From Cyanobium sp. Tous-M-B4 (GTDB lineage: Bacteria > Cyanobacteriota > Cyanobacteriia > PCC-6307 > Cyanobiaceae), in contig NZ_JAGQBA010000003.1 of assembly GCF_024345395.1 (NCBI RefSeq), positions 310,001-374,000 of the forward strand: 64,000 nucleotides of DNA. Reading direction: 5' to 3'. Made by a program: the position numbers and the translations under genes. The notes under the pieces are model-generated. The model saw only the letters and a program-made list of their open reading frames with translations, made no database searches and was not told the origin of the DNA. Below are positions 29,786 to 44,296 of the stretch, in pieces. Numbering within the stretch: position 1 is the stretch's first letter; each line of letters begins with the position of its first letter.

Positions 29786-30241
29786 ATGACTGACACCAAT
29801 AGCCCCGCCGTCCTCCCTTATTGGCACCTCTGGACCGACGACGGGGGAGTTAGCCGCCAGACGCTCTGCAGCATGGCCCCCTGGACCCTGGGAGTGTTGG
29901 GTCCAAACGACTCCCCCCAGTGGAATCTGGACCTATTCAAGGATGGAAATTCCTTCCTTACCCAACTGCCGGTGGGTTGGACAGCGGACTGGCACGAAAA
30001 CCACATTCCCAAATGGATCTACGTGCTGCGCGGCAGCTGGTCGGTGGAGAGCATGGATGGCCAGAAACAGATCTTCGGCCCTGGTGAGTTTTCCTTTGGC
30101 GGCGATCAGCAGTGCCTAGCAACTGCTTCAGGAGCCAAGGGCCATCTCTCTGCCCAGGTAGGAGCAGAGCCCTGCCTGCAGCTGATCATCCAGCGCAACG
30201 ACGAACTCTGGCGCGGCGTGCGGCCGGGGTTCTTCTCGTGA
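29786..30241 (+). CDS. Cupin-domain protein
   Basis: A 151-residue single-domain cupin. The barrel motifs WTADWHENHIPKWIYVLRG and GPGEFSFGGDQQCLA are visible, with His residues that could bind a metal. No specific function is known. It starts 24 bases after ridA, and its stop overlaps the GTG of the lactonase gene. That coupling suggests it acts in the same pathway. Confidence 0.7.
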   Translation: MTDTNSPAVLPYWHLWTDDGGVSRQTLCSMAPWTLGVLGPNDSPQWNLDLFKDGNSFLTQLPVGWTADWHENHIPKWIYVLRGSWSVESMDGQKQIFGPGEFSFGGDQQCLATASGAKGHLSAQVGAEPCLQLIIQRNDELWRGVRPGFFS

Positions 30242-31155
30242 ACCAGCCCTCCGAGTGCACGGTCAGCTTCGACCGTCGCTTTGACGAGCTGGTGTTGTTC
30301 AATGCCGAGCTGGAATTACTGGCCGAGGGATTCCGCTGGGTGGAAGGTCCGGTGTGGTTTGGCGACCACAACTGCCTGCTGTTCAACGACATCCCCAACA
30401 ACCGCACGATGCGCTGGAGTCCCGAGCACGGGGTGAGCGTGTTCCGTGAACCCTCCGATTACGGCAACGGCCAAACCCGTGATCGCCAGGGCCGCCTGAT
30501 CACCTGCCACCACGCCAGTCGCTGCCTCACCCGCCTCGAGCCCGATGGCACGGTCACCACCCTGGCCACCGAGGCCCATGGCAAGCGTCTCAACGCCCCC
30601 AACGACGTTGTGGTGAAGAGCGACGGTTCGATCTGGTTCAGCGATCCCCTCTACGGGCTACTAAACGACTACGAGGGCGGCCGGCAGCAGTCTGAGCAAC
30701 CCGTGGCGCTCTACCGCCTCGACCCAAAAACCGGGGCGGTGGAGACAATGGCCAGCGACTTCGACGGTCCCAACGGCCTGGCCTTCTCGCCGGATGAGCG
30801 CAAGCTTTACGTGGCTGAATCGGGCGCCCCTGGTGTAGCGGACCCCCGCCAATACATCCGGGTGTTCGACGTGGCTGCCGACGGCCACAGCCTCTCAGGT
30901 GGGGAGATCTTCCACAAGGTCACTCCAGGCTGGGCCGACGGCTTCCGGGTCGACGAGCAGGGCAACCTCTGGTGCGGTGCCGCCGATGGCGTGCACTGCG
31001 TCGCCGCCGATGGCACCCTACTGGGCAAGGTGTTGGTGCCCCAGCGAGTTTCCAACCTCTGCTTCGGCGATCGGCACCACAGCCGCCTATTTCTCTGTGC
31101 CTCCAAGGCGATCTACGCCCTGTTCACCAACACCCGCGGCGCCCAGGCGCCCTGA
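30238..31155 (+). CDS. SMP-30/gluconolactonase-family hydrolase
   Basis: A 305-residue six-bladed propeller of the SMP-30/gluconolaconase/LRE family, which opens sugar lactones such as gluconolactone to the acid. The metal-site residues are present: Glu36 in VEGPVWF, Asn122 in APNDVVV, Asn179 in DGPNGLAFSPDE and Asp234 in WADGFRVDE. The start is GTG at 30238, overlapping the cupin stop by four bases. A frame open further upstream has no homology. It is well placed to act after a sugar dehydrogenase such as the nearby SDR or GMC proteins. Confidence 0.85.
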   Translation: MNQPSECTVSFDRRFDELVLFNAELELLAEGFRWVEGPVWFGDHNCLLFNDIPNNRTMRWSPEHGVSVFREPSDYGNGQTRDRQGRLITCHHASRCLTRLEPDGTVTTLATEAHGKRLNAPNDVVVKSDGSIWFSDPLYGLLNDYEGGRQQSEQPVALYRLDPKTGAVETMASDFDGPNGLAFSPDERKLYVAESGAPGVADPRQYIRVFDVAADGHSLSGGEIFHKVTPGWADGFRVDEQGNLWCGAADGVHCVAADGTLLGKVLVPQRVSNLCFGDRHHSRLFLCASKAIYALFTNTRGAQAP

Positions 31156-33402: not shown

Positions 33403-35043
33403 TCACTTACCCAGACGCTCGCGCAGATGATCGCCAACCCGCAGGGCATTGGCGATTGCCGTAAGGGAAGGATTCACCGCGCCGATAGTCGGCATGAAGC
33501 TGGTATCGACTACGTAAAGGTTGTCGAGGTCGTGGGCCTTGCAGTTGAGGTCGAGCACCGAGGTGGCCGGATCGTCGCCGAAGCGACAGGTGCCGGCCTG
33601 GTGCGCCACGGCGGCAATACCCATCGCGTTCTTGACATAAATCTGGCGCTCCACCAAATGCTTCTTGAGATAGAGCTGGTCCAGCATCCCGGTGAGCCGG
33701 CCGTAGAGCCGCTGGGCGGCGGTTGGGTTGTTGGGCGTGTAGTCCAGATGAATCTGGCCCTCGCCATCGATGGTCACCCGGTTGTTGGGGTCGGGCAGAT
33801 CTTCTGAAGAGATCCAGAAATCAATCGCGTGCTCAGCGATTTTGTCCATAGACCAACCGGGCATCAAGAAGGTTTCGAGCGGCGCATAGCCCTTCATGAT
33901 CGTGCCGTTGGTCTTACCCGTCATCTGGATGTTGCCCATCGGATAATCAAAATCGGCATCCCCCAGATACCAATCGTTGATCGAAAGCGTCTTCTGGAAC
34001 ACGGTGGTGTTGGGCTCGTGGGCCAGGGCCACCATCGCCTTGCTGTTGTGGAACATGTAGTTGCGGCCCACCTGATCGGAGCTGTTGGCCAGCCCACGCG
34101 GGTGCTTGTCATTGGCAGACATCAACAGCAACCTGGCGCTGTTTGCAGCCCCACAGCTCACCACCACCACATCACCGCGCACGGTCATGGGCTCACCATC
34201 GCGCTCCAACTTCACCGCTTGCACAGTCCGCCCGGAAGCATCCGTAAGCAACTGCAGAACGTGGGCTCTAGTCAGCAGTGACACATTCGGAGCAGCCAGG
34301 GCCGGCCGCATGCCGAGCACGTCCGCATCGGATTTGGCATGCACCAGACAAGGAAAGCCATCGCAGCAATTGCACCTGCGGCAACGGCTAAAGGCCATGT
34401 TGGCCTCATCCAGCATCACCCCGGTAGGGGCATGGAAGGGATGCAATCCGGCCAATCGCAAATCATCTACTAGCTTCTGAATTCGCGGCTCATGGGCCAC
34501 CGGTGGATGGGGATAGGGGCCACTGCAAGGCGGCTCGGTAGGGTCTTCCCCTCGCTGACCGTGCACATGAAATAGCTCTTCTGCCCTCTGGTAGTAGGGC
34601 TCGAAATCGCTGTAGCGCAGGGGCCAGGCTGGCGAGATGCCATCAAAGTGCTGCAGCTGCTCAAAATCCTGCTGGCGCAGGCGAAAGTGAGCTGCTCCAT
34701 ACATCTTCGTTGCCCCACCAACGAAGTAGTGGCTACCAGGCTGAAAAGGTTTGCCGTGCTTGTCGTGCCAGATGTCTTTGGAGATGTAACGCCCCTTCTG
34801 GAACACTTCCGCGGCATCCCAGTTCTGGGGTTCCTGAGGCAGCCAGTCGCCTCTCTCCAGCACCAGAATGTTCAAGCCACTGGAACCCAGGTGACGCGCC
34901 AGGGTGCCACCACCGGCGCCACTACCGATAATCACCACATCGAAGTGAGCCCCATCTGCCACATTTAGCTGGGCAGCAGCGGGCATGGGCGAAATTGCCA
35001 GGGAAGGACCAGGAAGCTCGGTGCGATTAGAAGGATGGGCCAT
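33403..35043 (-). CDS. GMC oxidoreductase (catalytic residues present)
   Basis: A 546-residue FAD-dependent glucose-methanol-choline family enzyme. The FAD motif VVIIGSGAGGGTLARHLGSS is at about 36-55. The active-site pair is present: His481 in AHQAGTCRFG and Asn524 in GAVNPSLTAIANAL. A Cys cluster CRRCNCCDGFPC is at 221-232. There is no signal peptide, so it is probably cytosolic or at the inner membrane face. Such enzymes oxidise alcohols or sugars and pass electrons to a quinone or O2. It is the last gene of the eight-gene oxidase operon, 48 bases after the glycosidase gene. Confidence 0.88.
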   Translation of the reverse strand: MAHPSNRTELPGPSLAISPMPAAAQLNVADGAHFDVVIIGSGAGGGTLARHLGSSGLNILVLERGDWLPQEPQNWDAAEVFQKGRYISKDIWHDKHGKPFQPGSHYFVGGATKMYGAAHFRLRQQDFEQLQHFDGISPAWPLRYSDFEPYYQRAEELFHVHGQRGEDPTEPPCSGPYPHPPVAHEPRIQKLVDDLRLAGLHPFHAPTGVMLDEANMAFSRCRRCNCCDGFPCLVHAKSDADVLGMRPALAAPNVSLLTRAHVLQLLTDASGRTVQAVKLERDGEPMTVRGDVVVVSCGAANSARLLLMSANDKHPRGLANSSDQVGRNYMFHNSKAMVALAHEPNTTVFQKTLSINDWYLGDADFDYPMGNIQMTGKTNGTIMKGYAPLETFLMPGWSMDKIAEHAIDFWISSEDLPDPNNRVTIDGEGQIHLDYTPNNPTAAQRLYGRLTGMLDQLYLKKHLVERQIYVKNAMGIAAVAHQAGTCRFGDDPATSVLDLNCKAHDLDNLYVVDTSFMPTIGAVNPSLTAIANALRVGDHLRERLGK

Positions 35044-35091
35044 GGCTGAATAGAGTGAGCAGTCGAGAAAAGAAGCAGGCAGTCCCTTGCG

Positions 35092-37779
35092 TTAACCAGA
35101 GGGATAACGATTCAGTTGGTTGATCATTTTGGCAACCATGGCACTCCAGCCGGTCTGGTGCGATGCGCCAACACCTCGGCCATTATCGCCATGAAAATAT
35201 TCGTTGAACAGGAGCAAATCGCGCCAGTGGGGGTCGCTCTGGAAAAGCTCTACATCACCATTGAAGGCACGGCGTCCAGATCCATCCCGCCTAAAGATCC
35301 CAACTAGCCGCTTCTCAAGCTGCAGGGACACCTCCCAGAGATTTAACCAGTTGCCCGAGCGGGAGGGAAACTCGACCTTGAAGCTATCGCCGTAGTAATG
35401 GGCAAACTTCTGCAGCGACTCAATTAGCAAGAAATTAATCGGCATCCACACCGGGCCCCGCCAGTTGGAGTTACCCCCGAACATCGCCACCGGGCTATCG
35501 GCGGGGCTGTAGGCCAGGGTCTGACTGTCAGCACCCTCAGTGAAGGTATAAGGATGATCGCCATAGACCTTAGAGAGAGAACGAATGCCATAAGGCGAGA
35601 GAAACTCCTCTTCGTCGAACAGCCGCTCACAGATCCGACGCAACCGATCTTCAGGCACCAGAGTATACAGAATACGATCATTATGCCACTGGCCAAGGTG
35701 ATGCTCTAGCCAGGTAGATGTGGTGCGCTCGTGCACAAACCAAGCCATACTATTGAGCACATCAAGCACTGGGAGGCGCTCGACTGTTTCACGATCAAAA
35801 CTGGCCACCGCTAGCAGGGGAACTAGGCCAGAAAGGGATCGAGTGCGCAGGAAATCGGTAGTGCCATCAGGCCGCTTGATCACGTCGTAATAGAAGCCGT
35901 CGTCATCGTCCCAATTAAGGAATCCCCGATCTGATGGTGCATTCAAGGTGAGGGCAAGCTGGGTAAAATCATAAACAAAGCGCTCACAGGTATCGGCATA
36001 CTCTGGCTCCTCACAGCTCAGTTCCACTGAAATGTTCAGCAGGTTGAGGCTCAGCGATGCCATCCAGGCCGTGCCATCACACTGCTCGATGCGGCTGCCA
36101 TCTTCGAGAGGAAAGCGGCGATCAAATACCGCAATATTGTCTAGACCAAGGAAACCACCCTCAAACACATTGTCGCCGGAGCGATCGTTGCGGTTAGCCC
36201 ACCAGCCGTATTCGAGTAGAAGTTTGCGCAGGGCAGACCTTAGGAAAGGCTGATCTGCCTTGCCGCTGTATTTGTGATCGATCTGATAGATGCGCATGGC
36301 AGCCCAGGCACCGATCGGCGGATTGGGATCAGATAGAGCCCATTCGTAGGCAGGGGTCTGGGCACTAGGGGCAGTGAAGTGGGGGCTGCGCAGCAACATG
36401 GCCTGCTGCTTGGCCATCTCCGGATCCACGATGGCAAACGCAACCGCATGGAACATCAAGTCCCACTGGCAAAAATAGGGGTACTCCCAGGCATCCGGCA
36501 TCGAGATGATGTTGTGGGCGTGCAGCCGCTGCCACTGGGCCGTCTCGGTATGCCAGCGGTTTGCTGGTGGTGCTGGCTGGGTAGGGTCCCCCTCAAGCCA
36601 GCGCAACACACTCCAGCCGTAATACTTCTTGCACCAAAGCAAACCGGCCAAAGCCGAGGTGTGGATCAGGCGATCCTCCCCATTGATCCCGGGCAGGACA
36701 GCCTCAAAGAAGCGATGGCACTCCTGTTCTCGAGCGCTAAAGAGCGCATCAAATGAGTCGCCAAATTCAGGCTCCTGCGAGAGCAAAGTATCAGCCTGCG
36801 GCCTCTGCCGCAGGCGAAGCTCAACGCACCACTCCTCATCCGGGGCGAGGGTGCGCTGCACCAGCCGTGCTGCCTTAGTGCCGGTATGGGCAGGATTGAT
36901 AGCGCCTATCTCCCCGTCTATCAGATAACGGTGAAATCCATCCTTCTGAAATTGAGTGGAATTAGGCTGGCCGTAAAGATGCTGGTGGTTGGTTTCATTA
37001 TCGGTAAACAACCACTCGCCCTGCTCGCGGCAGAGCAGCTCATAGACACCGAGGTTGGCCAAGTCGGAGGTGACAACACGATCATCCTCAAGAGTCATCG
37101 GTTGCCGATACTCATCGGGATAGCCCCAACCCCAGGTATTGCGCATCCACAGAGTGGGTAATAGGGCAAGCGGTGCTGGATCCGGCCCACGGTTGGTGAC
37201 CCGAATGCGGATCAGCAGATCAGTAGCTGCAGCCTTGGCGTATTCAACAACAACATCGAAGTAGCGGCTGTCATTAAAGATGCCCGTATCGACCAGCTCG
37301 TATTCGGGCTCGCTGCGGCTGCGCCGCCCGTTCTCATCCACCAGGTGCTGATATGGAAATTCAGCCTGCGGATACTTGTAGAGCCCCCGCATGAAGCTAT
37401 GGGTGGGGGTGTTGGCGAGGTGGAAGTAGTAATCCTTGAGATCTTCACCGTGGTTGCCTTCAGGATTACCCAGGCCGAATGGCCGCTCCTTGAGGACCGG
37501 ATCCACACCATTCCACATCGCCAGGGAGAAGCAGAGCCGGCACTCTTCGTCGCAGATCCCCAATAAACCGTCTTCGCCCCAGCGATAGACGCGGGACCTG
37601 GCCTGATCGTGAGGAAAGGAGCGCCAGGCATCGCCATCGCCGGAATAATCCTCGCGGACGGTGCCCCATTGACGATCGGGGAGGTAGCTGCCCCAGAGGC
37701 TCCAGGGCTGCATACCCTTATCGCGCTCGCTGATCCGCTCGACTTCTGGGTCGCTGGTCAAAGCGGGAGTTGTGGTCAT
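35092..37779 (-). CDS. GH63/MGH1-type glycoside hydrolase
   Basis: An 895-residue (alpha/alpha)6-barrel hydrolase of the type annotated mannosyl-oligosaccharide glucosidase or MGH1. Bacterial and plant relatives cleave glucosylglycerate, mannosylglycerate or other short alpha-glucosides. Visible motifs are YFCQWDLMFHAVAFAIVD, the long LGLDNIAVFD region and GGNSNWRGPVWMPINFLL. No signal peptide is seen. It overlaps the upstream GMC gene by four bases, so the oxidoreductase and the hydrolase are co-translated. It is less GC-rich than genes outside the operon. The substrate is not determined; compatible-solute glucosides are a reasonable guess for a cyanobacterium. Confidence 0.82.
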   Translation of the reverse strand: MTTTPALTSDPEVERISERDKGMQPWSLWGSYLPDRQWGTVREDYSGDGDAWRSFPHDQARSRVYRWGEDGLLGICDEECRLCFSLAMWNGVDPVLKERPFGLGNPEGNHGEDLKDYYFHLANTPTHSFMRGLYKYPQAEFPYQHLVDENGRRSRSEPEYELVDTGIFNDSRYFDVVVEYAKAAATDLLIRIRVTNRGPDPAPLALLPTLWMRNTWGWGYPDEYRQPMTLEDDRVVTSDLANLGVYELLCREQGEWLFTDNETNHQHLYGQPNSTQFQKDGFHRYLIDGEIGAINPAHTGTKAARLVQRTLAPDEEWCVELRLRQRPQADTLLSQEPEFGDSFDALFSAREQECHRFFEAVLPGINGEDRLIHTSALAGLLWCKKYYGWSVLRWLEGDPTQPAPPANRWHTETAQWQRLHAHNIISMPDAWEYPYFCQWDLMFHAVAFAIVDPEMAKQQAMLLRSPHFTAPSAQTPAYEWALSDPNPPIGAWAAMRIYQIDHKYSGKADQPFLRSALRKLLLEYGWWANRNDRSGDNVFEGGFLGLDNIAVFDRRFPLEDGSRIEQCDGTAWMASLSLNLLNISVELSCEEPEYADTCERFVYDFTQLALTLNAPSDRGFLNWDDDDGFYYDVIKRPDGTTDFLRTRSLSGLVPLLAVASFDRETVERLPVLDVLNSMAWFVHERTTSTWLEHHLGQWHNDRILYTLVPEDRLRRICERLFDEEEFLSPYGIRSLSKVYGDHPYTFTEGADSQTLAYSPADSPVAMFGGNSNWRGPVWMPINFLLIESLQKFAHYYGDSFKVEFPSRSGNWLNLWEVSLQLEKRLVGIFRRDGSGRRAFNGDVELFQSDPHWRDLLLFNEYFHGDNGRGVGASHQTGWSAMVAKMINQLNRYPSG

Positions 37780-39293
37780 CGCAGTGCTGCCCCCAAACCA
37801 TCGGCAATGCGCAGGGCATTGGCGATCACGGTGAGACCAAAGCCCATGGCCGGGCAGGCAGGGAAAGTACTGGCATCAACGATGGTGAGATTGGCCACCT
37901 CATGGCTACGGCCATCGAGATCCACCACCGACGTGGCCGGATTGACTCCCATGCGGCAGGTGCCGCAGCTGTAGCCCATGGCCGATAGGGGCGCCTCACC
38001 GCGGGGATGGGTGGGGGCTTCCCTCACCACATGGCAATCCGGATCAGCCTCCACCGCCTTAAGGGTGTCGATCCAGCGATACACGAGGCGATCATGGGCC
38101 TCGCGGTTGTTGGCCTGATAGGTGACCTGAATGCGATCACCCAGCAGGCTGATGCGGTTGTGGGGGTCGGGCAGCACAGGACTCATCGCCCACCAGCTGA
38201 TCGAACGGGAGGCCAGCTGCTCAAGGCCGAAGTTGGGCAGCAGCTTGGTCACCAGGGACAGCACCGGCGGCGACTCGGCAAACAGGGCATCCTGCAAAAC
38301 ACCGCCACCGTTCTGGATCGAACCCAGGGGGAAGGAGACATTCTTGTCGCCCCAGAGGTAGTCGTTAATGCCGTAGCTACGCCCATATCGGCCACTGTTG
38401 GCCTCAGTGGCCAACTGCAGAATCGAAGTGAGCTGGAGCTTCATCAGGTTGCGGCCCACCTGGTCGGAGCCGTTTGCTAAGCCACGCGGATGGCGGTCGG
38501 TCGCTGAACGCAGCAGGATCGCGGCGCTGTTGATGGCGCCTGCCGCTAGCACCACCTGATGACCAAAAAACAGCCAGCTCTGGCCATCCAGCCGCGCTTC
38601 CACACCCCGAACCTCCGTTCCGCTGGGGTTGACGTGCAGACGTTGCACCTCAGCTCCGGTGCGCACCACCACCGTGGCGGATGCCCGGGCCGGGTCCACC
38701 CCAAACAACTCCGCATCACCACTGGGATCGGCGCTGGACTGGGACCAGCTCAGCGGCAGGGAATAGGGATTCAGCCCCTGGCGAACCAAGGCCAGCCGCA
38801 ACTCCTCAAAGAACGGCTCCACGGGCTTGGGGGCCATGGCGTAGTCGGCGCCCGCTCGCGGTTCGGTGGGATCCACGCCCCGCTGACCATGCACCCGATA
38901 TAGGGCCTCAGCTTGGTCGTACCAGGGTTCGAAATCTCCGTAGCTAAGGCCCCAGGCTGGAGCCTGCCCCCCCTGTAAGTGCAGGCCAGCGAACTCCTGC
39001 TCCCTCAGCCGCTCGAGCACCCCACCCCAGATCTTGGTGTTGCCGCCTAGGGCGTAGATCATCTGAGGAGAAAAGGGATCCCCGTCGGTGCCAAACCATT
39101 GCTCCTTGGGGTGGTAGCGATCCTTGCGGAACAAATCCACATCGGCGACGTTCTGATCAGCAAGGGGCATCTGTTCCCCCCGCTCCAGCACCAGCACTGC
39201 CAATCCTGATGAGGCAAGCGAATTGGCGAGGGTGCCGCCGGCAGCCCCACTGCCAATGACAATTACGTCGTAATGGTTGTCGTCGATGATCAT
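37776..39293 (-). CDS. GMC-type oxidoreductase lacking the catalytic pair
   Basis: A 505-residue FAD protein of the GMC family with an intact dinucleotide motif (VIVIGSGAAGGTLANSLASS). Where its paralogue at 33403-35043 has His481 and Asn524, it has Tyr441 (MGYSCGTCRMG) and Gly484 (PAMGFGLTVIANAL), with identical spacing of 43 residues. It also lacks the Cys cluster. It may use another chemistry, be an electron-transfer subunit, or be inactive. It starts ten bases after ctaE and overlaps the glycosidase gene by four. Confidence 0.85.
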   Translation of the reverse strand: MIIDDNHYDVIVIGSGAAGGTLANSLASSGLAVLVLERGEQMPLADQNVADVDLFRKDRYHPKEQWFGTDGDPFSPQMIYALGGNTKIWGGVLERLREQEFAGLHLQGGQAPAWGLSYGDFEPWYDQAEALYRVHGQRGVDPTEPRAGADYAMAPKPVEPFFEELRLALVRQGLNPYSLPLSWSQSSADPSGDAELFGVDPARASATVVVRTGAEVQRLHVNPSGTEVRGVEARLDGQSWLFFGHQVVLAAGAINSAAILLRSATDRHPRGLANGSDQVGRNLMKLQLTSILQLATEANSGRYGRSYGINDYLWGDKNVSFPLGSIQNGGGVLQDALFAESPPVLSLVTKLLPNFGLEQLASRSISWWAMSPVLPDPHNRISLLGDRIQVTYQANNREAHDRLVYRWIDTLKAVEADPDCHVVREAPTHPRGEAPLSAMGYSCGTCRMGVNPATSVVDLDGRSHEVANLTIVDASTFPACPAMGFGLTVIANALRIADGLGAALR

Positions 39294-39303
39294 GGATGGT
39301 TCC

Positions 39304-39882
39304 TCAGCTGCGCTGCCAGACGTAAAGGAGAACGAAGAGGATGATCCAAATCACATCCACAAAATGCCAGAACAGGGAGGTGGCCTGAACGCCCTGCTCT
39401 CCACCCGCATAGTTCTGGGGGATGAAAGATTTCACCAGCATCAATCCCATCAAAAACACCCCCGTGGCCACATGCAAGCCGTGGAAGCCGGTAAGTAGAT
39501 AAAAGGTGCCGCCGAATACGCCACTGGTGAAGCCAAACTGCAGACCACCCCACTCAACGGCTTGGCCGTAGAGGAAATAGGCGCCAAGGGCCATGGTGAG
39601 TAACCAGAAGGCCCGAAAGCCCACCAGATTCCCCTTGCTCATGCAGCGCTCTGCCAGCCAGATCGTGCCCGAACTAGAAATCAATACCACCGTGTTGAGC
39701 AGGGGCGTGCGCCACTCGAGGCCTTCTACACCGGGGGGCAGCCAATTGAGCGCAGCGGTTTTCAGTAGTGCAAAACCACTAAAGAATGCCAAAAAGATGA
39801 CACTCTCAGAACAGAGAAAGATGATGAAGCCAGTGAGGTTGTGCTTCGGGTGCTCAGTGTTCAAATGAGGTGTAGCAGTCAT
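39304..39882 (-). CDS. ctaE: Cytochrome c oxidase-type subunit III
   Basis: A 192-residue, five-helix subunit III of a heme-copper oxidase. Family motifs FLCSESVIFLAFFSGF, LLTGFHGLHVATGVFLM and FWHFVDVIWIILFVLLY are present. Its ATG overlaps the ctaD stop as ATGA. Subunit III stabilises the catalytic subunit and is not itself redox-active. Confidence 0.94.
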   Translation of the reverse strand: MTATPHLNTEHPKHNLTGFIIFLCSESVIFLAFFSGFALLKTAALNWLPPGVEGLEWRTPLLNTVVLISSSGTIWLAERCMSKGNLVGFRAFWLLTMALGAYFLYGQAVEWGGLQFGFTSGVFGGTFYLLTGFHGLHVATGVFLMGLMLVKSFIPQNYAGGEQGVQATSLFWHFVDVIWIILFVLLYVWQRS

Positions 39883-41555
39883 GCCCTGGCCTCCTCAAGG
39901 GTGAGCTGATTTTCAATCTCTGCCTGGTGCTCAACCAGTGGCTCTCCAGTGCCGTAACCATAGGGGCGTGAAATCACGGTCGGCACGTGCTCACCAAAGT
40001 TGTCTTCAGGTGGCGGGGATGGCAACAACCACTCAAGACCAATGGCATTCCAGGGGTTATGGGGGGCTTTCGGGCCCCGCACCCAGGCACTCACCATGTT
40101 GAGGAGGAAGGGAATAATCGACACTCCCAGCAGGAAGGCACCCAGGCTGGCCAGCACATTCCAGAAGGCAAATTCCGGGTCGTAGCTAGAAACCCGCCGG
40201 GGCATACCCATCAAACCGAGGGGGTGCATGGGCAGAAAATTGAGGTTGGCACCGATGAAGGTGAGCAGGAAATGGAGCTTGCCAAGGCCCTCGTAGGGCA
40301 TGCGGCCAATAAATTTGGGAAACCAGTGATAGATAGCTGCAAAGATTCCCATCACCGCTGCTCCATAGATCACGTAGTGGAAGTGGCCTACCACGAAATA
40401 GGTGTTCGACACGTGAATATCGACCGGCACCGTGGCAAGCATGATCCCGGTGATGCCGGCAAATACAAAGTTGAACAGACCACCCAGGCAAAAAAGCATC
40501 GGGGTGGTGAGTCGCAGTTTGCCGCGCCAAATGGTGCCCAGCCAGGCAAACACCTTCACCCCCGTGGGCACAGCAATCAGCATGGTGGAAAACATAAAGA
40601 AGTTGCGCATCCACTGCGCCACCCCACTGGGAAACATGTGGTGCACCCACACAACTAAACCCAGTGCCACGATGATGAAGGAGGCCAGGCAGACGTAGAC
40701 ATAGCCAAACAGTGGCTTGCGTGAATAGACAGGAAACAGCTCGGAGAAGATGCCAAACACCGGCAGAATGATCACATACACGGCCGGGTGAGAATAAAAC
40801 CAGAAAAAGTGCTGATAAAGCACTGGGTCGCCACCTCCCTCTGGCTGATAAAAGCTGGTGCCAAAGCTGAGGTCCATCAGCAACATCACCGCCCCACCAG
40901 TAAGGGCCGGCAGGCCGATCAACTGCAGACTTTGGGCTGCAAGAGCCGTCCAGCAATACACGGGCATCCTGAAAAAGCCCATGCCAGGAGCGCGCATCCG
41001 CAGAATCGTGGTCACGAAATTGATCGCTCCCATGATCGAGGACACCCCCGAAAGGGCCACGGCTGTGATCCACAGGCCTTGGCCATTAATAAAGTGGCCC
41101 AGCGGGTTCTGGGTGCTAACCGGTGGATAGGACCACCAGCCGGAATAGGCCGGCCCACCAGGAACGAAAAAGCTGCCGATCAACAGGGCGCCGAAAATAG
41201 GCACCAGCCAGAAGGCCACCGCATTTAGCCGCGGAAAGGCCATATCTGGAGCGCCGATCATCGTGGGGATCAGCAGGTTGTTGAGGCCATTCAGCACCGG
41301 AAAGATGAACAGGAACAGCATGATTGTTCCGTGCATCGTGTAGATGCCGTTGTACACCGTGCGATCCACCAGATCAGCCGGGGGTGTAATCAGCTCTCCT
41401 CGAATTATCATGGCCAGCAGGCCACCGATCAGAAAGAAGAAAAAGGCCGTAACGATGTACTGAATGCCAATCACCTTGGCATCTGTATTGAAGCCGAAGT
41501 AACGGCTCCAGGAGGTGTTTTCGGGAGGACTGGGCGGGAAGGTAGCGGAGGTCAT
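39879..41555 (-). CDS. ctaD: Heme-copper oxidase subunit I (ARTO-type operon)
   Basis: A 558-residue catalytic subunit with about 12 helices. All redox ligands are present: low-spin heme His75 and His393, heme-copper site His391, CuB ligands His256, His305 and His306, and the cross-linking Tyr260 in SHPAVYVIILP. The subunit should therefore reduce O2. A conserved NAPD-like D-channel entrance is around Asp104. It starts five bases after ctaC. The partner subunit II shows that the enzyme belongs with alternative respiratory terminal oxidases (ctaCII/DII/EII) rather than the standard cytochrome c oxidase. Confidence 0.95.
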   Translation of the reverse strand: MTSATFPPSPPENTSWSRYFGFNTDAKVIGIQYIVTAFFFFLIGGLLAMIIRGELITPPADLVDRTVYNGIYTMHGTIMLFLFIFPVLNGLNNLLIPTMIGAPDMAFPRLNAVAFWLVPIFGALLIGSFFVPGGPAYSGWWSYPPVSTQNPLGHFINGQGLWITAVALSGVSSIMGAINFVTTILRMRAPGMGFFRMPVYCWTALAAQSLQLIGLPALTGGAVMLLMDLSFGTSFYQPEGGGDPVLYQHFFWFYSHPAVYVIILPVFGIFSELFPVYSRKPLFGYVYVCLASFIIVALGLVVWVHHMFPSGVAQWMRNFFMFSTMLIAVPTGVKVFAWLGTIWRGKLRLTTPMLFCLGGLFNFVFAGITGIMLATVPVDIHVSNTYFVVGHFHYVIYGAAVMGIFAAIYHWFPKFIGRMPYEGLGKLHFLLTFIGANLNFLPMHPLGLMGMPRRVSSYDPEFAFWNVLASLGAFLLGVSIIPFLLNMVSAWVRGPKAPHNPWNAIGLEWLLPSPPPEDNFGEHVPTVISRPYGYGTGEPLVEHQAEIENQLTLEEARA

Positions 41556-41560
41556 CGGGC

Positions 41561-42508
41561 TCAGGCGTCGTGCGGCAGGGAGTTGGATCCGGGAACGTTC
41601 ACCTGGGGCGGTGGGGCTGGTGGCACGGTGGCCCAGCCTGGGTTTTTGAGCTGTTTGCGCTCGCCGTATTCGATTACTGCATCACTTAAACCAGGCTGCA
41701 ACGGCTGGCTAGCGGCGTTCTTCAGCCAAGCCTGGTAAGCCTCGGGGCTCTCGACCACCACATCGGCCTGGTTGGCGGCAAACCAGGTGCCACTGAACTG
41801 GGAATCGCGCAGGCGGTAGCGCCCCTGCCGCGTTGGCGTGAGATTGAAGTTGATCGCCCGGCCAGGGATTACGTCCTGCTTGAGGCGGAAAGCTGGAATG
41901 TAAAAGCCATGAATTACGTCGTCTGACACCAAACGGAAGCTGACGGGCTGATCAACCGGCAGATGCAGCTCGGTGGTGGAAACATTGACGCTTGGATAGC
42001 TAAATTCCCAAGACCACTGGCGGGCAATCACCTCCACCTGCTCGGCCGGCAAGCGATCGGCGGCGTAGCCCCCCTGGTCTTCCACCGGATTAGCCAAATG
42101 GATGTGCTCCATCGGCCCAAGAACTCCGAGTTTGGTGTTGACGCGCATGGCGTAAACCGCGATAGCCATCACCAGCAGTAAGGGAATGACCGTCCAGATC
42201 ACCTCGAGCCGGGTATTTCCCTCAATCGGCTCCGCATCGCTCTCGTCGTATTTCTCGGCGCGGTGCTTAATCAGCACCCAAGCCATCACCGACACCACCC
42301 CCCCAAACACAAACGTACCGATGCCCGTTTCAAAGCTGAACAGCCCATCCACCAGTGGTGCTGCGGTCGAGGCCTGCACAGGCAACCAGCGATATGCCTG
42401 CTGGGCCATCCACCAGCTCAAGGCCACCAACAGCCCAATCCAAGCCAGCAAGCCGGCCAAGCCGGCGCTGCTGATTGGTGGGCGGGAGCGGTCAGAGGAG
42501 TTACTCAC
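41561..42508 (-). CDS. ctaC: Heme-copper oxidase subunit II without CuA ligands
   Basis: A 315-residue subunit II with three N-terminal hydrophobic segments (about 15-34, 62-81, 102-121) and a C-terminal cupredoxin domain. His200 (VIHGFYIPAFRLKQDVIPGR) is kept, but the loop that normally reads CxExCxxxHxxM is RDSQFSGTWFAAN. Asp235, Ser239, Phe243 and Asn246 replace Cys, Cys, His and Met, so no CuA centre can form. This is the known hallmark of cyanobacterial ARTO, whose donor may be quinol. It overlaps the DUF2231 gene before it by four bases. Confidence 0.92.
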   Translation of the reverse strand: MSNSSDRSRPPISSAGLAGLLAWIGLLVALSWWMAQQAYRWLPVQASTAAPLVDGLFSFETGIGTFVFGGVVSVMAWVLIKHRAEKYDESDAEPIEGNTRLEVIWTVIPLLLVMAIAVYAMRVNTKLGVLGPMEHIHLANPVEDQGGYAADRLPAEQVEVIARQWSWEFSYPSVNVSTTELHLPVDQPVSFRLVSDDVIHGFYIPAFRLKQDVIPGRAINFNLTPTRQGRYRLRDSQFSGTWFAANQADVVVESPEAYQAWLKNAASQPLQPGLSDAVIEYGERKQLKNPGWATVPPAPPPQVNVPGSNSLPHDA

Positions 42509-43128
42509 GGCAGGGCCTCGGTGAGATCAGCGCCAGCGGCAAGAAGTTGGTCGGCGGTGATGTGAACACCGAATTCAGCTGCAAGCTCGGCGCCGAGGGT
42601 GCCGTGCAGCCCGATCACAAGAAATAACCCCAGGCCCACCAGCAGGTAGAGCCACTGCACCTGACGCCCCATGTCACGGCGCCAGACAAAGCGCTGATAG
42701 CCGCGCCACACCGTCATGGCGACGATCACCAGCAGGATCACAACCCCACCGACGCCATGCACAAGCATCGTCTCCATGCTCTGCAGTCCGATGCTGCTGG
42801 TGACTCCGGGCAGGGGCACTGCCAGCAGCATTTCGTAGAAGCCGGCAGCCACCGTGAAGAAGGTAACGATGGAGCAGGCCAGCAGGTTGTACCAACCCAC
42901 ATCGTGGAAGCCCCCGCGGGTTACGGGCAGGGCTAGAAAGCGAAACACCCGCTTCTCCACCGGATATAGGGCGCCGGCAATATCGAAGGCGATGGCAATA
43001 ACGAACAGACCGATCGTGAAATGCACCAGGTTTGGATGAATTGGCAGGGCATAGGGAAGCCCGTTGGGCCCAAGATCAGCTGCCAACTGCTCAATCGGTG
43101 AGCCCGCCGGAATGAAGGCAGCCATCAC
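42505..43128 (-). CDS. DUF2231 membrane protein (second copy)
   Basis: A 207-residue four-to-five-helix membrane protein of the DUF2231 family. Histidines lie in or at the ends of helices: His31 and His36 (IHPNLVHFTIG), His124 (LVHGVGG), His175 (GLHGTLGAEL) and His189. His31, 36, 124 and 189 have counterparts in the neighbouring paralogue. Such paired His could bind b-type heme or face a quinol. The gene overlaps ctaC and the first DUF2231 gene by four bases each, so it is surely made with the oxidase. Function unknown. Confidence 0.8.
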   Translation of the reverse strand: MMAAFIPAGSPIEQLAADLGPNGLPYALPIHPNLVHFTIGLFVIAIAFDIAGALYPVEKRVFRFLALPVTRGGFHDVGWYNLLACSIVTFFTVAAGFYEMLLAVPLPGVTSSIGLQSMETMLVHGVGGVVILLVIVAMTVWRGYQRFVWRRDMGRQVQWLYLLVGLGLFLVIGLHGTLGAELAAEFGVHITADQLLAAGADLTEALP

Positions 43129-43640
43129 ACCAGCCCTGAGCGCATGGCTTGCACCACCGGCACTGTGTGCAGGCCGTACACCCAGATCAACTGATTACCA
43201 AGGGTGACCTGCAAAACGATCAGGGCACTGAGCAGCCCACCAGCGCCAAGAAATGCCAATGGCAACTGCTGGGGGTCCTTACTGCGTATTACATAACGCC
43301 AGCCCGACATCAGCGACAACACCCCAGCCAACGACCAACCGATCGTGCTGTGCAGATTGAGAATGTCGCGGGAGGCGCCATAGGGATTGGCCAACCCCGC
43401 TTCAATCTGGCCAAACATAATTGCCACAAAGATAGCGGCTGTGGCAAAAAGAAGATTCCAAAAGCTGACCTCAAACAGAGCTGGCCGGCGAGTTACAACT
43501 CCGATGAGATCAAATACAAAGGTAATCAGCCCCATGGCGATCACAAAGTGCACAACGATCGGATGGATGGTGTCCATCCAAGGGAGGTTGTGGTCGTTGA
43601 GCGGCGGTAGCAGCTCAAGCATGGTGCCCATACCAATCAC
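43125..43640 (-). CDS. DUF2231 membrane protein (first gene of oxidase operon)
   Basis: A 171-residue membrane protein, paralogue of the next gene. His26 and His31 (TIHPIVVHFVIA), His97 (NLHSTIGW) and His158 (VYGLHTVP) align with His31, 36, 124 and 189 of the second copy. Start: GTG at 43640, with GGAG seven bases upstream; ATGs at 43631 and 43622 are in frame but lack a ribosome site. This is the first gene of an eight-gene minus-strand operon ending at 33403. A direct role with the oxidase is inferred only from position and overlaps. Confidence 0.78.
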   Translation of the reverse strand: MIGMGTMLELLPPLNDHNLPWMDTIHPIVVHFVIAMGLITFVFDLIGVVTRRPALFEVSFWNLLFATAAIFVAIMFGQIEAGLANPYGASRDILNLHSTIGWSLAGVLSLMSGWRYVIRSKDPQQLPLAFLGAGGLLSALIVLQVTLGNQLIWVYGLHTVPVVQAMRSGLV

Positions 43641-43777: not shown

Positions 43778-44296
43778 GTGACAGTTCCCGCTTCTCCCGC
43801 CCTGCGCTGGGTCACCGCAGCCCTGCTGTTTGCTGCTGCCGGGCTGTCAGTGGTGCTGCCATTTGTCTCGGCCACCTTGCTCACCATCGCCGTTGGGGCC
43901 GTATCGGTGATTGCCGGAGTGTCCCAAATACTGCGTCTCACTGGCGAAGCCGATATCAAAGGAAAAATCTTCCGCCTGTTCTCAGGCCTGCTTTATCTGG
44001 GCGGCGGCATATGGGTGCTGGCATTCCCAGTTGCCAGTGAGGTGAGCTTGACGCTGTTTGTCGGCTTTCTGCTTGCTTTTGAGGGCGTAATGGAGCTAGC
44101 CGCCGCGGCCACCGGCCAGGGAGCGGCCCGCGGCTTAGTGCTGATTGACGGCATAGTCACCGCCGTACTCGGCGGCATGCTGATTGCCGAGTGGCCCTCC
44201 GACAGCATCTGGGCCATCGGCATGTTGTTTGGCATTGGCATGGCGTTTTCCGCCATCAACCTGCTCACGGCCCCACCAAGCCAGCCGGCCAGTTGA
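43778..44296 (+). CDS. HdeD-family membrane protein (DUF308)
   Basis: A 172-residue protein with six short membrane helices in three pairs, fitting the HdeD/DUF308 pattern (ISQ-type loop GVSQILRLTGEADIKGKIFR and LLYLGGGIWVLAFPVAS). HdeD is an acid-resistance membrane protein in E. coli; the role in cyanobacteria is unknown. The start is GTG at 43778. It diverges from the oxidase operon, sharing a 137-base intergenic region with it, and its 3' end overlaps the convergent ggt gene by 32 bases. Confidence 0.75.
   Translation: MTVPASPALRWVTAALLFAAAGLSVVLPFVSATLLTIAVGAVSVIAGVSQILRLTGEADIKGKIFRLFSGLLYLGGGIWVLAFPVASEVSLTLFVGFLLAFEGVMELAAAATGQGAARGLVLIDGIVTAVLGGMLIAEWPSDSIWAIGMLFGIGMAFSAINLLTAPPSQPAS

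Follow-up and report, generated by a model that had tools for sequence, protein, structure and literature searches.

Two small membrane proteins of the DUF2231 family, encoded side by side and hereafter called A and B, were found to accompany a cyanobacterial heme-copper oxidase whose subunit II has lost its CuA copper site. This partnership between the gene pair and the oxidase is well supported. As the enzyme has lost both known electron entries, we regard the pair as the leading candidate for its electron supply, by way of a putative bound cofactor. The genes lie in the stretch of DNA that we analyzed (the window; 64,000 nucleotides from Cyanobium sp. Tous-M-B4), where they head an operon of the known cyanobacterial type 1 ARTO (alternative respiratory terminal oxidase). 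ARTO is a widespread cyanobacterial oxidase that is linked to heterocyst function and to oceanic iron limitation, and the CuA-less subunit II alone does not settle how electrons enter it. Our results name two uncharacterized proteins as its near-obligate partners and pinpoint the residues for mutagenesis. Should the pair carry heme, it would represent a new way to feed a heme-copper oxidase and would provide a function for a DUF family for which we found no solved relative.

The ARTO operon and its DUF2231 gene pair

On the minus strand, the window carries, in this order, the genes for A and B, ctaC, ctaD, ctaE, and a GMC-family oxidoreductase. A (DUF2231-A; 43125-43640, minus strand; 171 amino acids, four transmembrane (TM) helices) matched the Pfam model PF09990 (DUF2231) with an E value of 3.9e-35 and B (DUF2231-B; 42505-43128, minus strand; 207 amino acids) with 4.2e-37, i.e., with 127.7 and 121.4 bits against a curated cut-off of 26.4. 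For both proteins, no Pfam family besides DUF2231 scored above its cut-off, and no cytochrome b family was matched. A and B are 27% identical (BLASTP E 3e-10), which bears out the initial annotation of the two open reading frames as tandem paralogues overlapping each other and ctaC; the A/B and B/ctaC overlaps each measure 4 bp. Because the relatives of A align from a methionine at codon 7, its true start is likely ATG 43622 (165 amino acids) instead of GTG 43640.

Behind the pair, ctaC-II (41561-42508, minus strand; COX2 domains) encodes the oxidase subunit II without CuA ligands, ctaD-II (39879-41555, minus strand; PF00115, E 2.2e-151) encodes subunit I, and ctaE-II (39304-39882, minus strand; PF00510, E 3.6e-32), which overlaps ctaD by 4 bp, encodes subunit III. 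The GMC gene (37776-39293, minus strand; PF05199/PF00732) ends the set of operon genes that is constant among picocyanobacteria: The full set from A to the GMC gene was present at 71 of 80 related picocyanobacterial loci, and a CuA-less ctaC followed the pair at all 75 of these 80 loci that had ctaC on the fetched sequence. Two small genomes of 1.7-2.0 Mb kept all six operon genes.

We assign this operon to type 1 ARTO, as ctaC, ctaD, and ctaE are adjacent, the CuA-less subunit II is encoded together with subunits I and III, and two membrane-protein genes lie upstream of subunit II, like alr2729-alr2730 in the Anabaena five-gene operon alr2729-alr2730-coxB3-coxA3-coxC3 (PMC6616624). The Anabaena ARTO (type-1 ARTO/Qox/Cox3) thus has the same composition of two membrane proteins, a CuA-less subunit II, and subunits I and III, and a Trichormus variabilis locus shows the same ARTO gene order as the window. 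In Anabaena, alr2729-alr2730 respond together with the cox3 genes, and their products have been listed either as hypothetical proteins or as putative membrane proteins (PMC4390870, PMC7065334). In these three ARTO papers (PMC6616624, PMC4390870, PMC7065334), we found neither the link to CuA loss, nor the missing bo3-type quinol site, nor an association with cbb3-type oxidases. Relative to the ARTO literature that we examined, the near-obligate link of the pair to a CuA-less oxidase with both entries lost is therefore new, as is a second association of the pair, with a cbb3-type operon (see below).

Several further genes were observed around the operon. Sugar-related genes accompany the oxidase in the window: next to the GMC gene (together spanning 33403-39293, minus strand), there are an MGH1-like glycoside hydrolase gene (35092-37779, minus strand), which overlaps the GMC gene by 4 bp and occurs at 53 of the 80 related loci, and a second GMC gene (33403-35043, minus strand), with a gluconolactonase-like gene (30112-31155, plus strand) farther on. 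Homologues of the glycoside hydrolase lie divergently beside the pair at two other loci (L078, 9507-12134; L228, 14507-16000), and a gluconolactonase homologue (L079, 11530-12522) lies near a CuA-less ctaC that has no pair beside it. Directly upstream of the operon lies a divergent gene for a DUF308 membrane protein (43778-44296, plus strand). No defense families were found. The Trichormus variabilis operon is located on a conjugative plasmid (plasmid A), where the GMC gene is followed by one that bears the annotation cytochrome ubiquinol oxidase subunit I.

Co-occurrence of the pair with oxidases

The comparison that the initial annotation had proposed, of DUF2231 genes beside CuA-less and intact-CuA oxidases, clearly separated the two types. 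Within a context of ~16 kb, the pair was adjacent to 14 of 18 CuA-less ctaC loci and to none of 22 CuA-type loci (Fisher p 1.3e-7, a value that ignores shared ancestry and refers to hand-picked loci). A phylum search over 146 genomes, combined with direct inspection of loci, revealed two adjacent DUF2231 genes in all 33 genomes that had a CuA-less CtaC. Among the best 30 CtaC loci, the pair stood directly upstream of the CuA-less ctaC in 28, and in the two exceptions it was found elsewhere in the genome. Likewise, where the oxidase genes were scattered (L067, L069, and L071), the pair was still in the genome. At L079, a CuA-less ctaC was observed without an adjacent pair, in a genome that has two others.

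A less biased test than the table of hand-picked loci came from the family of the window, where 246 of 251 genomes were concordant (115 with both pair and oxidase and 131 with neither). None of the five discordant genomes, four with DUF2231 only and one with CtaC only, is a firm case: In two (G308 and G367), a contig edge lies beside the gene; in G390, ctaC was actually in place; G165 is a 62% complete genome; and G246 gave one weak match only. Presence and absence varied within at least six genera (g1, g2, g4, g5, g6, and g93), and therefore pair and oxidase have repeatedly been lost or gained jointly.

In a phylogenetic tree, A and B formed two separate groups (80% and 83% ultrafast bootstrap), which points to A and B being separate old orthologue groups. 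Both cbb3-associated pairs described below placed inside the correct A or B group. A third, "solo" DUF2231 subfamily is set apart (100/99) and located away from oxidases. These cyanobacterial solo proteins (L083-L090, L064) carry a GHPLHP motif, have lost the second TM1 histidine, and sometimes occur in tandem (L064). An apparent natural A-B fusion, a 401-amino acid frame in G083, was rejected, as the locus consists of two open reading frames in the same frame with a stop codon between them.

The pair was also observed beside a different oxidase. At two loci, L063 (5581-10666, minus strand) and L065 (1002-6132, plus strand), it shares an operon with a CcoN-like COX1 protein, a FixO-FixS fusion with one CxxCH motif, and a type of NDH-2, in genomes that gave no match to a CuA-less ctaC. 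The NDH-2 of this type occurred in 16 genomes of the phylum, 11 of which have it next to the pair or its oxidase, and hence a quinone pool is indicated as the electron source. A pair on a Gloeothece plasmid had no oxidase within 6 kb and lay near a gene for a four-helix copper-binding protein. Outside the phylum, the search for DUF2231 contexts gave one distant plasmid match and a follow-up search gave none; a distant DUF2231 gene (L215, 4767-5417) sits on a Phenylobacterium plasmid among cueR, a P-type ATPase gene, a multicopper oxidase gene, and copB.

Lost electron entries and invariant residues

Upon alignment with 22 CuA-type CtaC proteins, the CuA motif CxxxCxxxHxxM was found to be absent from the window's ctaC-II. 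Its residues 235-246 (41771-41806, minus strand) read DSQFSGTWFAAN, where the genome's other CtaC (L080) has CAELCGPYHGGM, in agreement with the earlier description of a subunit II without CuA. The neighboring ctaD-II, aligned to E. coli CyoB, keeps the heme and CuB ligands as well as the D- and K-channel residues. The four CyoB quinol-site residues R71, D75, H98, and Q101, however, were absent in 13 of 13 ARTO CtaD proteins, including that of the window, and were replaced by I/V/L, F/L/M, V/L/F, and G/A/S, respectively. The NCBIfam equivalog cut-offs for CyoA and CyoB were missed as well (70.6 versus 266.2 and 434.7 versus 1020.35 bits). Judged by these alignments, ARTO has neither CuA nor a bo3-type quinol site, and it is left with no known electron entry because the CuA ligands and the bo3 quinol-site residues are both lost. 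CtaD might carry another, unrecognized quinol site, as the site compared is that of bo3-type enzymes only. Plastoquinol has been described to feed electrons to ARTO directly at heme b (PMC6616624); our residue comparison lends no support to a bo3-type site in such direct feeding.

The pair, on the other hand, displays a strict set of polar residues. H26, H31, E80, H97, and H158 of A and H31, H36, E99, H124, and H189 of B were invariant in 19 of 19 diverse cyanobacterial pairs, and the histidines were likewise invariant in 59 of 59 picocyanobacterial pairs. The four shared histidines thus stand exactly at the positions that had been noted initially, whereas the glutamate where TM2 ends (E80 of A and E99 of B), which is likewise invariant, had not been mentioned. 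Two distant DUF2231 relatives away from oxidases (L104 and L105) keep much the same histidine pattern, and because of this the four-histidine pattern is largely a signature of the DUF2231 family rather than oxidase specific.

AlphaFold2, run on A-only and B-only alignments because a mixed MAFFT alignment of A and B misplaced the TM3 histidine, predicted four TM helices for A (pLDDT 83.7) and gave a less certain model for B (pLDDT 68.6). In the model of A, H26 and H31 lie in TM1 (20-50), H97 in TM3 (88-121), and H158 just past TM4 (128-155), consistent with the initial placement of the histidines in or at the ends of helices. The four invariant histidines of each protein are predicted to lie at one membrane face. 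Positively charged residues are concentrated in the TM1-2 and TM3-4 loops (on average 1.8 and 4.2 in A, 3.3 and 5.1 in B) compared to 0.2-1.7 elsewhere. By the positive-inside rule, these counts put the N- and C-termini and the TM2-3 loop of A and B outside and all invariant histidines and glutamates on the lumen or periplasm side, which is the side where electrons enter heme-copper oxidases. In Synechococcus 7002, a lumen peroxidase labeled A0728 (PMC7880944), which was matched to sll1486 of Synechocystis and whose number adjoins that of A0727 (ctaCII); from its gene position, A0728 would be the B gene.

As a rough estimate, with each residue of the A model counted as 1.5 Angstrom starting at the helix ends, H31 and H97 lie similarly deep (28.5 and 31.5), and H26 (36), E80 (39), and H158 (~40.5) lie nearer the surface. 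A helical-wheel test for conserved faces was mostly not significant, including for TM1, and placed H31 of A and H36 of B opposite the conserved TM1 face. Because of this placement, a simple heme between H31 and H97 within one bundle is not favored, and a site between the subunits, e.g., with H31 of A and H36 of B, is as possible as one within a bundle. Structural searches returned generic folds: The best Foldseek match in the PDB was cytochrome bd (9r2g_A) at an E value of 0.21 among generic four-helix bundles only, VIA Z values of up to 14.0 were inside the generic helical-bundle range, and sequence searches gave no convincing solved relative.

Candidate roles of the pair

We give an even chance to the reading that A and B are obligate accessory subunits of ARTO, forming a module that would pass quinol electrons to the low-spin heme. 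Two antiparallel four-helix proteins would assemble with the oxidase, with their invariant histidines and glutamates gathered at the helix ends facing the lumen or periplasm. Plastoquinol would be oxidized by A-B near this p-side surface, protons would be released on the p-side, and the electrons would cross a cofactor, most likely a b-type heme with the invariant histidines as its ligands, on their way to the low-spin heme of CtaD and then the heme-CuB center. The module would thereby take over the job of CuA or the bo3 quinol site, which are both missing in ARTO. The initial annotation had suggested such an electron entry, as a b-type heme protein or a quinol-binding module. Our data strengthen this view without proving it: The co-occurrence, the lost bo3 site, the predicted p-side position of the residues, and the NDH-2 neighbors all speak for it, and the heme or quinol binding that it includes stays putative.

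Known oxidases offer partial parallels. E. coli bo3 (CyoABCD) is likewise a heme-copper oxidase whose subunit II lacks CuA, and quinol is the presumed substrate of ARTO as well, but the R71, D75, H98, and Q101 of the E. coli enzyme are missing from ARTO CtaD, and the cyo operon has no DUF2231 gene. The archaeal SoxABCD is a CuA-less heme-copper quinol oxidase to which an additional b-type cytochrome, the cytochrome b homologue SoxC, supplies electrons; unlike SoxC, A and B show DUF2231 alone in Pfam.

Other roles for the pair were weighed against the same data. Instead of carrying electrons, A and B could be factors devoted to assembling or maturing the CuA-less oxidase, acting in heme or CuB insertion or as subunit chaperones. 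Small membrane proteins with conserved histidines encoded upstream of oxidase genes would suit such a task, as would the copper-resistance genes around the distant plasmid DUF2231 gene and the copper-binding protein near the Gloeothece pair. Yet, the CuA-type oxidases of the same genomes need heme and CuB insertion too and never have the pair, and it is harder to see why one factor should serve both ARTO and a cbb3-type oxidase while the CuA type lacks it. This role is unlikely in our view. We consider it quite unlikely that the proteins, having no redox cofactor themselves, act by binding or channeling plastoquinol or by shaping a site for quinol on CtaD. The invariant histidines and glutamate near the p-side, the quinone pool implied by NDH-2, and a CtaD without the bo3 site would fit this role, but to our knowledge eight invariant histidines across two proteins exceed the need of known quinol sites.

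The presence of exactly four invariant histidines and one invariant glutamate per protein could also be read as a non-heme metal site, of copper or of iron, that relays electrons. Bacterial reaction centers indeed hold a four-histidine, one-glutamate iron between their quinones. The conserved-face result sets one of the four histidines apart, however, and such a site seems improbable to us. Least probable of all, and hardly to be expected, is a side exit for electrons, e.g., a ferric reductase module of the plasma membrane coupled to the oxidase. The histidine cluster would face the periplasm or lumen, and Synechocystis ARTO mutants reportedly show poor reduction and uptake of Fe(III) (cited in PMC10119275), but this effect on iron could be indirect, and the near one-to-one link with CuA loss would be left unexplained.

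Returning to A and B as an electron-feeding module, we tentatively entertain a broader version, with a probability well short of even: A-B heterodimers may be an exchangeable quinol-oxidizing b-type cytochrome that replaces the entry subunit both in the CuA-less, aa3-like ARTO and in a cbb3-type oxidase without ccoP. The pair does lie in the ccoN-ccoO operon at L063 and L065, and at these two loci no ccoP was found beside it. A third locus (L216), however, has ccoN-ccoO but neither the pair nor a ccoP in the vicinity. A cbb3-type oxidase can thus apparently do without both, and the notion that the pair stands in for CcoP is for this reason only suggestive. In the L063 and L065 operons, B was further observed to carry a C-terminal extension of ~100 amino acids.
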